A stretch of DNA of 64,000 bases from Marinilabiliaceae bacterium (GTDB lineage Bacteria; Bacteroidota; Bacteroidia; Bacteroidales; Marinilabiliaceae): NCBI GenBank assembly GCA_016933045.1, contig JAFGBR010000069.1:1-64000 (forward strand). Reading direction: 5' to 3'. Position 1 is the stretch's first letter, and every line of letters starts with the position of its first letter. The notes under the pieces are model-generated. The model ran no database searches and was not told the origin of the DNA. It saw only the letters and a list, made by a program, of their open reading frames with translations. Below, piece by piece: positions 24,719-61,682 of the stretch. The position numbers and the translations under genes are program-made.

Positions 24719-25013
24719 ATAATTAATAGTTGACATATTTATTAATGTTTAATGTCAGTGTATGAATTTAATATTTAAATGATGCATATAATTCTTGCAT
24801 TAGGAGTGTTATATGCATTTTAATATTCAAATATGCCACCTGTTAGCAATAAAAGAATAGTTTTTTTTATTTGACAATATCGTGATGGTTTATATTATAA
24901 ATTAGGGTTTCACTTATCTAATAAATAAAAAATTTGACTAGTGAAACTATCATGTTAAAAATTTCTATACACTGGGTAATAGCTTGATCCGATTTATCGT
25001 GAATTATTGGCAG
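24719..25013. other. Non-coding upstream part of the leader of the unknown gene
   Basis: AT-rich with no open frame and no consensus promoter that I can place. The 3' end merges into the shared hairpin element described next. Confidence 0.4.
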
Positions 25014-25041
25014 GTACCTTCAGACTATTGGAGCAGGCTAT
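25014..25041 (+). promoter_or_regulatory. Leader hairpin element, copy A (shared with serB)
   Basis: Hairpin CTTCA (25018-25022) / TGGAG (25029-25033) with a 6-nt loop, followed by CAGGCTAT. The block ends 29 nt before the ATG at 25071. It matches the serB leader at 60400-60427 in 21 of 28 positions without gaps. In the stem, A-T here is G-C there and T-G here is C-G there, so pairing is conserved while sequence changes. No known riboswitch family is recognised. Confidence 0.5.
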
Positions 25042-25070
25042 TTAATCTTTAAAAAGCATATTATTAGTAT

Positions 25071-26363
25071 ATGAATAATTTAAGTTATTTGGTAATTATA
25101 GGTTTGTTGTTAACCGATTTTATTCTTCATTTTGATTTGTCTGCTCGGGAATTATTCGATTCTAATAAGGTAGTAGTGTTGAAAGACGAAGGCATAGAAA
25201 TGATGCCTTTTGCTAAAGGAGAAGTGCTAACGCGTAACGTCATGGATGATCAGTATCTATCTGCATTTCCCAGGAATCATGTTAACCAGCTTAAAATCTG
25301 CCAAAGTGATATTAAACGAATTGTTTCTACATGGAAAGAGATTTTACCGCCTAAGGGTTTTAGAGTAACCTACTTCAATTACATCGATCAAATTTATAAT
25401 CAAGAAGTTTATGATTTATCGAAGGACGATCCTGCTCCTATTATCTCAGGTCATGTTTCGATTGTTTTTCATCCCTATTATAAAGGTGACAACGGTCAAC
25501 CGGTTATTGACCCCGAAGTAAATGCTCAGGTTGCCATTCATCTGAACGATATTTATATTCTAGCTGGCTCACCACTTGTGGCCGATATCCATGTTTGCCC
25601 CAAACAAACAGATATTTTTCATGGATGTCCTATTTTTCAAACCAACCGACATGAGATCACAATTGTTAGCAAAAAAAATATTCCTTTTTTTATACCGGTT
25701 TCCAGGCAAGATCTTATTGAAACATTCATTAAATACTGGGAAAATTATATTCAGAAAGAGAAACAGCAGCAAATAAGGCCCGAAAGCCAGCAAAATATGC
25801 AATCTCTTGCCGGTGAAAGTGCACTACGTAAGGTTGAAATGAAAAAGGCCTATAACGAACTGTTGAAATATGATAAAAACGCGGCTGAACAACTAAAAAA
25901 ATCTTTTTATGAAGTGGAAGCCGCCATCGCCAGCGAAGCTGCCGGCTCCGAAGGAACCCTGACTCAATCAGATTTGATTGATAACAGCATACAAATGGCT
26001 TTAGAAACCATTGTTGCATTAAGGCAAGAACTGGCAACCATGCCTCAGTCCGAAAGGCAGCAACAGGCCTATTACAATGCCAATGCTATGGAACAATACA
26101 ACAACCGTTCGGGGCTTGTGCCAATAAATAATAATTACGAAGGGATGCCATTGATTCGGGTTAACTCTGCTTTAGTTGATCCTAACGATCCTTCCATTCA
26201 GTTAATGGTTATCCAATGGTATTATGTAGGCAATAATAGCGACCGGCCTCGTTTTTACAACGAAGGAAAGGAAGGTTACCTGTTGGCTGCTTGGAATATG
26301 GCTCAATTATATCAACAGGAACTAATATGGAATGAATTGTTTAATATTGTTCATGGAGAATAG
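25071..26363 (+). CDS. Secreted protein of unknown function
   Basis: 430 residues I cannot place in a family. Visible: an N-terminal hydrophobic segment (about 4-22) that could be a signal peptide or anchor; a folded part with ISGHVSIVFHPYYKGDNGQPVIDPEVNAQ style beta strands and four cysteines around 195-206 (HVCPKQTDIFHGCPIF); an Ala/Glu/Gln-rich helical region (about 240-350) likely to form a coiled coil; and a C-terminal aromatic part (MVIQWYYVGNNSDRPRFYNEGKEGYLLAAWNMAQLY). No T9SS tail or lipobox. Transcribed alone with a ~100-nt leader that carries the same hairpin element as serB. Confidence 0.7.
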   Translation: MNNLSYLVIIGLLLTDFILHFDLSARELFDSNKVVVLKDEGIEMMPFAKGEVLTRNVMDDQYLSAFPRNHVNQLKICQSDIKRIVSTWKEILPPKGFRVTYFNYIDQIYNQEVYDLSKDDPAPIISGHVSIVFHPYYKGDNGQPVIDPEVNAQVAIHLNDIYILAGSPLVADIHVCPKQTDIFHGCPIFQTNRHEITIVSKKNIPFFIPVSRQDLIETFIKYWENYIQKEKQQQIRPESQQNMQSLAGESALRKVEMKKAYNELLKYDKNAAEQLKKSFYEVEAAIASEAAGSEGTLTQSDLIDNSIQMALETIVALRQELATMPQSERQQQAYYNANAMEQYNNRSGLVPINNNYEGMPLIRVNSALVDPNDPSIQLMVIQWYYVGNNSDRPRFYNEGKEGYLLAAWNMAQLYQQELIWNELFNIVHGE

Positions 26364-46859: not shown

Positions 46860-48467
46860 TTAAGGTTTAATTATTTTCTTCGATATATTAAATTTATCAT
46901 TGAATAGTTGTATAATATATACTCCCTTTGGAATTGATTGTTTTATACATATTGTTGATTCTGAACTTTTGAATTTCATTAGGCAATTTCCTGAAATGTT
47001 TATTAGTTGAACGGTATATGGTTTTGTGTGGTTTTTTAAAAATATTGTAATGTAACCATTGGGGTCTGTCCAAGCTTTTATTTCTACATTTGAGTTCTTA
47101 TGTAAATCTTTTGCAAAGTTTGGAATTCCATATCCATAATACTTATTTGGATTTGAATACTTACTCCCTGATTTGCGAATAGTATTGATAATGTTGTATG
47201 AATTACTTGAAGGGAGTGACTCCCATAAACATGCTGCAAGTCCTGATATTACAGGTGCAGCATACGAAGTCCCATGTCCTCGTTTTATGGTTCCATCCAT
47301 GTCCTGAACTGCATTGTAAACTCCCATGCATATTACATCGGGTTTAATTTGATTGATATATGGGTTGCCTATTGATGAAAATGATGCGAGTAATGAGTCT
47401 TTCGTCATGGCACCGATGCATAATACGTCCGGTGCATCTGATGGTGTTGAAATATATTGCCAGTCTGAATTCCCTTCATTGCCTGCACTTACAACTACAA
47501 CCATTCCTTTACTAACAGCTATATTTGCAGCCTTCGAAATTCTTGACGTGCCATCGAGTTGTGATGGTAAAAAGTTTAATTCTTCATTGTCGAAGGTGGT
47601 GTATCCGAGTGATGAATTAATAATATCTACTCCTACACTGTCGGCAAATTCAGCAGCACAAACCCAATAATCTCCTTCTATCGGGAATTCAGAAGTTGCA
47701 TCTTCGGTTCTCAATAACCAAAATGATGCTTTTGGTGCTGTGCCCAGGTATGAACCTGAGATATTGCCTCCAATTATCGATAATACATGCATGCCATGAG
47801 GGTGTGTTGTATAAATGTTGGAATTAGGGTCGACAAAATCTTTGGTTCCTAATATTTGGTTGTTCTTGAATAGATTTTGAAAACATGGAAGGTAATTTAC
47901 TCCATAAAAACCCGCATCAATGATAGCTATATGTTTTCCTTCTCCTAAAAAACCGAAATTGTGTAAGCTGGTTCCATTTACTGTTGATATTTGATCATAA
48001 GCATCTCCGTATATAAGTGATTTGTTATGCTCTGATGTTTTTAACGTTGTTAATTTATCGAATTTTGGAGTATTATCGGTAGTAATGAAACCTTTATTTA
48101 AACTTACGGTTTTTATAAAATGTAATTGTTTTATTGTGTCTATTAGATTTAGGTCATTACACTTTATTATTGCCCCATTAAGCCATTTTGAGGTGTTTAT
48201 TATATTTACATTTAGCTTTTTTAGTTTGTTTATGTATGTTTCTGATACCCCAAGATCTGTTGAGTCAATTTTTATTCCCTGATTTGATCGTCGTTGAATT
48301 GCTCGTTGTGAAAGGAATAATTCTGGATGATTGATTTGATGGGGGGTACCTTTTTTATCAATGAATGTGACAAAAAAGCAGATGTCACTTTGTGCTATGC
48401 ATAATGTATATTGGTATCCAACCAATAAAAATATTATTATAGTTTTTAATAATATGTTTTTTTTCAA
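46860..48467 (-). CDS. Subtilisin-like serine protease (S8), T9SS-secreted
   Basis: 535 residues with signal peptide (about 1-26), an S8 domain and a T9SS-like tail. Catalytic residues: Asp184 (AIIDAGFYG), His224 (THPHGMHVLSIIGG), Asn330 (VVVSAGNEGN, oxyanion hole), Ser401 (GHGTSYAAPVISG). An N-terminal pro-region (about 28-150) with FLSQRAIQRRSNQGI is typical of a Bacteroidota S8 group. The only in-frame start is a TTG at 48467; it overlaps the TGA of an upstream 53-codon frame (TTGA), suggesting coupled translation. It precedes xseA by 4 nt. Confidence 0.92.
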   Translation of the reverse strand: MKKNILLKTIIIFLLVGYQYTLCIAQSDICFFVTFIDKKGTPHQINHPELFLSQRAIQRRSNQGIKIDSTDLGVSETYINKLKKLNVNIINTSKWLNGAIIKCNDLNLIDTIKQLHFIKTVSLNKGFITTDNTPKFDKLTTLKTSEHNKSLIYGDAYDQISTVNGTSLHNFGFLGEGKHIAIIDAGFYGVNYLPCFQNLFKNNQILGTKDFVDPNSNIYTTHPHGMHVLSIIGGNISGSYLGTAPKASFWLLRTEDATSEFPIEGDYWVCAAEFADSVGVDIINSSLGYTTFDNEELNFLPSQLDGTSRISKAANIAVSKGMVVVVSAGNEGNSDWQYISTPSDAPDVLCIGAMTKDSLLASFSSIGNPYINQIKPDVICMGVYNAVQDMDGTIKRGHGTSYAAPVISGLAACLWESLPSSNSYNIINTIRKSGSKYSNPNKYYGYGIPNFAKDLHKNSNVEIKAWTDPNGYITIFLKNHTKPYTVQLINISGNCLMKFKSSESTICIKQSIPKGVYIIQLFNDKFNISKKIIKP

Positions 48468-48625
48468 CCTAACATTTTTTTATAGTTCGAATAGCCTGCT
48501 TCTGAGAAAATAGCATGATTATATTCATAAATGTTTCGCGATATATCGGGATAAGTTGTTTTTAGTTTTAAACATACTTGTTTTATGAAATTTTCATATA
48601 TTATTATGGAGTTGGCATTATTAAT
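48464..48625 (-). other. Protein-like open frame without canonical start
   Basis: A 53-codon frame between the MORN gene and the subtilase gene reads as convincing protein (YENFIKQVCLKLKTTYPDI, then SEAGYSNYKKMLG) but has no ATG/GTG/TTG near its beginning. It overlaps the end of the MORN gene and its TGA overlaps the TTG start of the subtilase. It may be a relic, a product of frameshifting from the MORN gene end, or a gene using an unusual start. Confidence 0.3.
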
Positions 48626-60328: not shown

Positions 60329-60399
60329 CAAGTGAGAACATTGTTATTAAACGAGCATGTTCGTTAAAAACACAATTACGGATGGAAATTTACATGTGA

Positions 60400-60427
60400 G
60401 TTCCTCCGAAATTTCGGAGCAGGCTAT
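60400..60427 (+). promoter_or_regulatory. Leader hairpin element, copy B (serB)
   Basis: CTCCGAAATTTCGGAG (60404-60419) forms a perfect hairpin; aligned with copy A it is a 5-bp stem with a 6-nt loop, followed by the same CAGGCTAT. The block ends 28 nt before the serB ATG (29 nt in copy A). It could act as a translational or transcriptional control element; the ligand or factor is unknown. Confidence 0.55.
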
Positions 60428-60455
60428 CTGGCTATAATTAATAAATTATTTAAGG

Positions 60456-61682
60456 ATGAAACGTAAAAAAGAGATTATACTTTTAAATATATCAGGAGAG
60501 GATAAACCTGGGTTAACTACATCGTTGACCAATATTTTGGCTCAATATGAAGTGAATATTTTGGATATTGGGCAAGCTGTTATTCATGAGGATTTAGGTT
60601 TGGGTATATTGTTCGAGGTTTCAGAATCTGCTGAATCATCGCCAATATTAAAAGATGTTTTATTTAAAGCTTATGAGTTGGGGTTGAATATTAAGTTTAC
60701 GCCTATATCAGAAGAAAAATATACAGAATGGGTTTCTCATCAAGGAAAAGACCGATATATTATTACTCTTTTGTCGCGTAAGCTTACAGCTGTTCAGCTT
60801 GCAAAAGTTACAAAGGTTATTTCGGATCAGGATTTGAATATTGATATTATTTCCCGTTTAAGTGGCAGAATACCTATTAATAATAAAACATCGGATGCTA
60901 AGTCGGTAGTTGAGTTTTCGGTTCGTGGAACACCTAAAAATGTTGAGGCAATAAAAAAAGAGTTTGTTGATATTGCACAGGAAGCTGGTGTTGATATTGC
61001 ATTTCAGGTCGATAATATTTTTAGGCGTAACCGTCGGTTAATTTGTTTTGATATGGATTCAACATTAATACAGGCCGAGGTTATTGATGAGTTGGCACGT
61101 GAAGCCGGTGTGTACGATAAGGTAAGTGAAATAACTGAAGCTGCTATGCGTGGCGATATAGATTTTAAAGAGAGTTTTGTGCAGCGTGTAGCACTTTTAA
61201 AAGGACTTGATGAATCGGTGATGAAACGGATTGCCGAAAATTTACCATTAACTGAAGGTGCTGAAAGACTTTTTGCGGCTTTAAAAAAGTATGGTTATAA
61301 AACTGCAATTTTATCGGGGGGGTTTAATTATTTTGGTAATTATTTAAAAAATAAGCTTGGAATTGATTATGTGTTTTCAAATGAACTTGAAATAGCAAAT
61401 GGACAGCTAACCGGAAAGCATGTTGGAGAGATTGTTGATGGAGCTAAAAAAGCAGAACTTTTAAAACTTCTGGCGTTTAAAGAAGATATCCATCTTGATC
61501 AGGTTATTGCAGTTGGTGATGGGTCTAATGATTTGCCAATGCTTCAATTGGCCGGATTGGGAATTGCTTTTCATGCGAAGCCTAAAGTTAAAGAATCGGC
61601 AAAACATGCAATTTCGGAAATTGGTTTGGATGCTATTTTGTATTTGTTGGGATTTAGAGATAGAGAGATTAATTTGAAATAA
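60456..61682 (+). CDS. serB: Phosphoserine phosphatase with ACT domains
   Basis: 408 residues: two ACT-type regulatory domains (about 5-80 and 95-185; EIILLNISGEDKPGLTTSLTNIL, YIITLLSRKLTAVQLAKVTKVI) and a HAD phosphatase (about 190-400) with FDMDSTLIQAEVIDELA (Asp199 nucleophile, Asp201 acid), LSGGFNYF, AVGDGSNDLPMLQLAGLGIAF. Last step of serine synthesis. ACT domains usually bind amino acids, so serine feedback is plausible. The leader carries a conserved hairpin element that may add control at the RNA level. Confidence 0.97.
   Translation: MKRKKEIILLNISGEDKPGLTTSLTNILAQYEVNILDIGQAVIHEDLGLGILFEVSESAESSPILKDVLFKAYELGLNIKFTPISEEKYTEWVSHQGKDRYIITLLSRKLTAVQLAKVTKVISDQDLNIDIISRLSGRIPINNKTSDAKSVVEFSVRGTPKNVEAIKKEFVDIAQEAGVDIAFQVDNIFRRNRRLICFDMDSTLIQAEVIDELAREAGVYDKVSEITEAAMRGDIDFKESFVQRVALLKGLDESVMKRIAENLPLTEGAERLFAALKKYGYKTAILSGGFNYFGNYLKNKLGIDYVFSNELEIANGQLTGKHVGEIVDGAKKAELLKLLAFKEDIHLDQVIAVGDGSNDLPMLQLAGLGIAFHAKPKVKESAKHAISEIGLDAILYLLGFRDREINLK

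Follow-up and report, generated by a model that had tools for sequence, protein, structure and literature searches.

PATEs, in the available part of PMC3119063, have no terminal inverted repeats, are of non-coding length, carry near-terminal palindromes and occur as heterogeneous copies; the same pages describe a targeting oligonucleotide of 4–6 nt at the boundary and attack by other small repeats. Guide-target pairing is described for IS200/IS605 in the accessible portion of PMC6006769. That portion also gives REPs a size of 21–65 nt and a largely intergenic location, and describes a RAYT (TnpA-REP) subclass 2.6 of Bacteroidetes whose genes are flanked by atypical structures with genomic copies. 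The bcr1 repeats of the Bacillus cereus group have a TTTAT motif and present a puzzle similar to that of the element described below, according to the sections of PMC6542083 that were available.

The locus described here very probably belongs to a family of non-coding, non-autonomous mobile repeats, ~92–160 nt in length, found in this order of Bacteroidota. The window, which is the whole stretch of DNA analysed, comprises 64,000 nt of contig JAFGBR010000069.1 from a Marinilabiliaceae bacterium (GCA_016933045.1, the source genome below). It was searched with a covariance model, R1, built from 24 sequences. Three copies of the element were found, one of them weak, and are given here in window coordinates with their hairpins and downstream genes.

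24941..25076, plus strand: weak, degenerate copy of a variant element, leader of a 430-aa ORF (R1 E 0.013 in an unfiltered search of the window; E 0.78 genome-wide)
25018..25033, plus strand: hairpin D, first site, CTTCA (25018–25022) / TGGAG (25029–25033) with loop GACTAT, in the degenerate copy
25071..26363, plus strand: 430-aa ORF, no family, with the terminal ATG of the degenerate copy as its start
46860..48467, minus strand: 535-aa ORF for a subtilisin-like protease with a T9SS sorting tail (ORF list; TTG start exactly at the element end)
48462..48586, minus strand: third element copy, beyond the two original sites (R1 E 1.6e-9 in the window, 9.4e-8 in the genome)
60346..60461, plus strand: element copy, serB leader (R1 E 4.7e-19, all 138 model positions; blast pieces to the C66 copy)
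60404..60419, plus strand: hairpin D, second site, CTCCG (60404–60408) / CGGAG (60415–60419) with loop AAATTT, an optional insert of the element
60456..61682, plus strand: serB, phosphoserine phosphatase, 408 aa (TIGR00338 E 1.1e-83; Pfam ACT and HAD)

The serB copy begins at 60346 with ATTAA, a decayed ATGAA, and its right ATGAA ends at 60460, the terminal ATG of the copy being the ATG of serB. Hairpin D is present in this copy and hairpin B is absent. The minus-strand copy ends at a terminal TTG codon (48467–48465), which suggests TTG 48467 as the true start of the subtilisin-like ORF. In the 535-aa product, the T9SS tail (TIGR04183) scores above cut-off and the protease models (TIGR03921 and others) score below theirs. 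Further support for the degenerate first-site copy comes from positions 24970–25011, which match a variant element on contig C28 at 86% (E 5.3e-6). The 430-aa ORF itself had no match in Pfam, PADLOC or NCBIfam.

A preliminary description of the window had paired 25014–25041 with 60400–60427 as a covarying leader hairpin, and its sequence details hold. The two stretches share 21 of 28 identities and GGAGCAGGCTAT, both have a 5-bp stem and a 6-nt loop, two stem pairs differ on both sides between the sites, and the hairpin lies 29 nt from ATG 25071 in one case and 28 nt from ATG 60456 in the other. The shared 12-mer alone was rightly judged uninformative, with 22 places in the source genome at up to one mismatch versus 16 for a reversed control pattern. 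The significance of the match lies in the longer element around the 12-mer. Six of the eight loci read (the first eight of the 22 places) share up to ~150 nt around the 12-mer, and a 158-nt element copy gave 44 blast pieces in the source genome at E ≤ 1. The hairpin of both sites is an optional insert within a longer dispersed repeat.

Read in register, the copies follow a single plan: ATGAA, ACGAGCAT, a small hairpin, a spacer, ATGC GAGTTCCAT NNN, an A+T-rich stretch and N'N'N'ATGAA, with a boundary after each ATGAA. The unit is bounded by these two pentamers, ATGAAAC at the left faces GTTYCAT, and tandem copies lie head to tail with one ATGAA in common. Optional parts of the plan are hairpin B (CTTGTCCCGATATATCGGGA) within the spacer, a short insert resembling ATCGGCGGAGCC, and hairpin D (CTCCGAAATTTCGGAGCAGGCT) after GAGTTC, the last being the hairpin of the original finding. 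Source-genome copies occur both with and without each hairpin. These palindromic inserts, hairpins B and D, are optional passengers and may be REP-like. Other short palindromes (ATCCGCCATAGGCGGA, CTGTTCCGCAGCGCGGAAGG and TCCCGATAAATTGGGACAAGTT) were seen inside the element at L106, L111, L117, L114 and L116, where they look like separate REP-type repeats nested in it; TCCCGATAAATTGGGACAAGTT is hairpin B in reverse orientation. One degenerate copy, L027 (G000:C24:6108–6161), lies near a sequence on the other strand that resembles, by eye only, the 3' end of RNase P RNA. No autonomous long version was found among 59 left ends in ~1.2 Mb, and the six of these left ends that have no middle motif within 170 nt are, by reading, decayed or variant copies with no gene inside.

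The family is present in high copy number. R1 gave at least 60 matches at E ≤ 0.01 and at least 71 at E ≤ 1 in the source genome (150 of 4348 candidates scored). With the source genome counted, at least 40 of the 71 family genomes have matches at E ≤ 0.01, and at least 42 of the 247 order genomes have matches at E ≤ 0.001. At least 118 R1 matches at E ≤ 1 were obtained in genome G022, and G015 holds at least 42 element matches. A blastn search of plasmid and phage records gave no element match. A pattern search located one copy on IMG/VR contig L390 (443–582, minus strand) between two neighbouring ORFs, with the left ATGAA holding the stop of one and the right ATGAA the start of the other; from a reading of its ORFs, L390 looks like a fragment of a Mu-like phage. 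The preliminary description had taken its find to be undescribed. This agrees with the literature searched, which took in few subscription journals and held no description of such a structured, covarying element at a fixed distance from starts; a word search of the available part of PMC2267715 matched no term.

Placement relative to genes was counted for 58 of the 60 source-genome matches (C24:6108 and C79:290125 left out). In 50 of these 58 copies the end coincides exactly with the beginning of an ORF of at least 60 aa, as compared to 2/116 for a control using the two other frames. The expectation that a covariance model would find many more matches at starts is borne out by these counts. In the 50 abutting copies the last codon is ATG, GTG or TTG in 47 and CAG, ATA and ATT in L013, L123 and L217, respectively. 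The eight copies without an ORF at their end are L017, L021, L120, L124, L125, L130, L213 and L226; for L017, an inner ATGAA provides the gene start. Direct abutment was seen for 7/11 copies in G015, 4/18 in G041 and 4/17 in G022. A second sample from G022, with genes called by the longest-ORF rule, contained 34/41 loci that point towards the next gene and 12/41 that abut an ORF directly, and seven further loci reach the ORF through a second, variant element in tandem that R1 misses. The low direct count in the first G022 sample arises partly because such a second element often follows. Some copies serve no gene by reading: L111 follows a stop codon and precedes a terminator-like hairpin, and others lie before tiny ORFs.

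All seven G022 insertions tested have element-free counterparts in genomes of the same genus, in which the gene start carries just one ATGA(A). One copy (L232 1539–1637; C1 384738–384836) sits between two genes, named mraW-like and ftsL-like from a reading of their translations, and harms neither frame: the upstream gene stops at the TGA within the left ATGAA, and the downstream gene starts with the ATG of the right one. By reading, this insertion is inside a cell-division gene cluster. Its flanks map to adjacent DNA in G062 with a 5-nt overlap equal to one ATGAA. The junction is also element-free in G064 (ATGAG) and G004 (ATGAA), and G063 has a different sequence there. For each of six further loci (6/6), analysed with their flanks joined, one or more of G062, G063 and G064 lack the element at the corresponding site. 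At one of the six, G063 is empty but G064 has an element in the same position. The upstream flank of the L242 locus aligns near the junction only.

At these sites, which come from one genus, the element and one ATGAA are gained, or cleanly lost, at a start codon. Whatever ended at the target is preserved in the left pentamer, which in one case holds the TGA that stops an overlapping upstream gene; the right pentamer provides the start codon. Because the right ATGAA gives the start codon back, the protein is unchanged by the insertion. The target is a pre-existing ATGA(A), nearly always a start codon in the source genome and one in at least 19 of 41 loci in G022.

Judged by its sequence, the internal motif is complementary to both element ends. 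With G-T pairs allowed, and whatever the letters involved, the three bases that precede the terminal ATGAA are complementary to the three that follow GAGTTYCAT at 85 of 97 sites, as compared to a mean of 33 and a maximum of 46 in 5000 shuffles. Ten Watson-Crick triplet versions of internal CATNNN and right-end NNNATG occur, including CCG/CGG, CAG/CTG, GTG/CAC and TTG/CAA. Since copies within one genome are related, a comparison of distinct triplet combinations is the fairer measure, and here 15 of 26 are paired (shuffled mean 4.3, maximum 11). An earlier test on R1-selected copies, nearly all of one version, was weak (49/95 paired; shuffled mean 40, maximum 50). The P1 arms pair at 4.70 of 6 versus 4.32 when shuffled (132 segments), with a GA/GA mismatch kept in 91/132 segments. 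In alignment A2 the named structure is paired in 88.5% of cells versus 85.7% when shuffled; two of five measures lie above all 500 shuffles, and pairs changed on both sides (5) are not above them. Six single copies folded as DNA have unremarkable energies (z −0.16 to −2.12).

The best reading of these data is a non-autonomous mobile element that works like PATE/IS200-605 derivatives or bcr1 and is inserted at start codons, to which we assign a probability of roughly 0.85. Such an element would move as a folded single strand with its enzyme supplied in trans, and the internal CAT-containing motif would serve as the guide for the element ends, as in IS200/IS605 and PATE derivatives. We infer that the enzyme may be a Y1 single-strand transposase acting in trans because this fits the guide logic of IS200/IS605 and PATEs, as given in the available parts of PMC6006769 and PMC3119063, respectively. 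No match to PF01797 (Y1 transposase) was found in the source genome (95% complete) or in the element-bearing G015 (76% complete). Among 14 selected relatives, twelve gave Y1 matches; these do not visibly track element copy number. R1 was run on 30 Y1 loci of relatives, part of 48 listed, and found element copies near one of them, upstream and not flanking; the Y1 genes read in relatives are flanked by other, unrelated palindromes. On these grounds, a Y1/RAYT transposase as a flanking partner was rejected.

For a bias towards the lagging strand, the signals are mixed and no general trend was seen: contig C1 of G022 is striking, and the 38 elements outside it, on 20 other stretches, are split by GC skew into 19 for and 19 against. 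In the first 400 kb of C1 (L292–L311), 11/11 element loci are on the plus strand, where long ORFs are balanced (139 vs 134).

An explanation that overlaps the best reading in all but the enzyme is a tyrosine or serine site-specific recombinase acting between ATGAA sites, as with integron cassettes or bcr1. It would account for a core at both ends and for tandem arrays that share one core pentamer, and it agrees with a source genome that has no Y1 gene and with the lack of a general replication-strand bias. However, the right-end triplet beside the junction covaries in a manner reminiscent of IS200/IS605 guide pairing. Integron attC core sites read RYYYAAC and GTTRRRY, motifs that the element arms ATGAAAC and GTTYCAT do not fit. 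We regard a recombinase of this kind as a serious alternative, though less likely than not.

The preliminary description had itself favoured a cis-regulatory RNA or protein-binding site, perhaps tied to serine or one-carbon metabolism. In its general form, a riboswitch, leader or protein-binding site in 5' UTRs with a regulon that includes serB, this explanation draws on the fixed position before starts in 50/58 source-genome copies, on covariation, on the conservation of the P1 arms and on a start codon within a potential hairpin. The precise empty sites (7/7) instead mark an inserted repeat, copies also lie behind stop codons or away from genes, and the genes downstream are unrelated, with neither a common function nor orthologous placement. 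Among 72 downstream proteins compared, 50 of them from the source genome, no cross-genome pair was related at E ≤ 1e-3. The serine/one-carbon regulon was rejected, as the 300 nt before serB in 17 relatives are, by reading, element-free and the targets are unrelated. R1 on 32 of 55 serB loci found nothing at serB and three matches elsewhere (E 0.7–0.98). Rfam, against which a check had been proposed, gave no match at gathering score in the window, and a known RNA family was ruled out by the absence of such matches; at E ≤ 0.5, seven element loci yielded five sub-threshold matches, all in L154 at 1133–1295 and outside the element at 1501–1639. Together with a start-codon hairpin that is broken in most source-genome copies, these results make regulation as the basis of the shared leader very improbable.

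The start-codon (terminal, P3) hairpin is paired in 16/59 rows of the source genome, one of the 59 being the reverse-strand shadow of another copy, and in 8/11, 17/18 and 14/17 copies in G015, G041 and G022, respectively. In the same 59 rows, the right (terminal) ATG is kept in 52 and the left ATG in 29. A retained start codon together with a broken P3 hairpin is as expected if the host retains the start codon and not the structure. The left ATG retains its G in 36/59 rows, and the bases next to this G are kept in 49–56/59, as if the upstream start codon were selected against in the source genome. Here the family would be old: its structure would be decaying, its upstream ATG disappearing, and the surviving copies would mostly be those incorporated into the start region of a gene. 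Of all regions in 28 short source-genome copies, the P1 arms show the highest conservation (0.92–0.93, other regions 0.70–0.90), which could stem either from constraint in the active lineage or from a retained host function. A side effect of the element on downstream gene expression is possible.

A conserved small ORF or N-terminal extension (consensus read as MKRACSLK..., its stop overlapping the next ATG) is scarcely credible and was rejected as a small peptide, since neither frame nor length is kept: L013 and L017 are by reading open in frame from the left ATG into the gene, but other copies have in-frame stops or have lost the first ATG (29/59 retained in the source genome), lengths range between 92 and 160 nt, and hairpins are present in some copies and missing in others.

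We return to the mobile element inserted at start codons. That it constitutes a new class of mobile DNA, in which an internal guide able to pair with both ends targets and regenerates start codons, with >100 copies in a genome and an enzyme still to be found, is a tentative proposal that we place somewhat short of even odds. If this is true, the element spreads by way of the first codons of genes, a target that would otherwise be harmful. A start codon as a safe landing site would explain the common 'leader' of unrelated genes, which is easily mistaken for a regulon. The family would also be a case of mobile DNA that rewrites 5' UTRs, at the scale of the G022 matches, and leaves genes unbroken. 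Through its covarying guide, the enzyme could be sought and end recognition tested directly.

The element shares with REPs and REPINs its nature as high-copy palindromic DNA. However, it is not in the REP size range, the Y1 genes read here are flanked by unrelated palindromes, and the GTAG-type tetranucleotide conserved at the foot of REP hairpins is, by reading, absent from the element consensus (single copies such as L007 and L031 have one by mutation). It differs from bcr1 in phylum, sequence and motif, and a link to start codons is not described for bcr1 in the source text available. Unlike in MITEs, whose terminal inverted repeats are those of a transposon, both ends read ATGAA in the same direction and the inverted repeat is internal.

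The likeness to PATEs and IS200/IS605 extends to several traits. The element has no terminal inverted repeats, is too short to code, carries near-terminal palindromes and occurs as heterogeneous copies, and like PATEs it is invaded by other small repeats. A fixed target of 4–6 nt at the junction has its counterpart in ATGA(A), present at 7/7 empty sites, and an inner guide that pairs with the end oligonucleotide has its putative counterpart in CATNNN/NNNATG (85/97). In contrast to both systems, no linked Y1 gene or Y1 transposon with the ends of the element was found in the source genome or at the 30 Y1 loci, no general strand bias was seen, and the pairing tract covaries at the right end. A further difference is the target, ATGAA, which in many cases is a start codon; since the element itself terminates in this pentamer, the gene is left intact.
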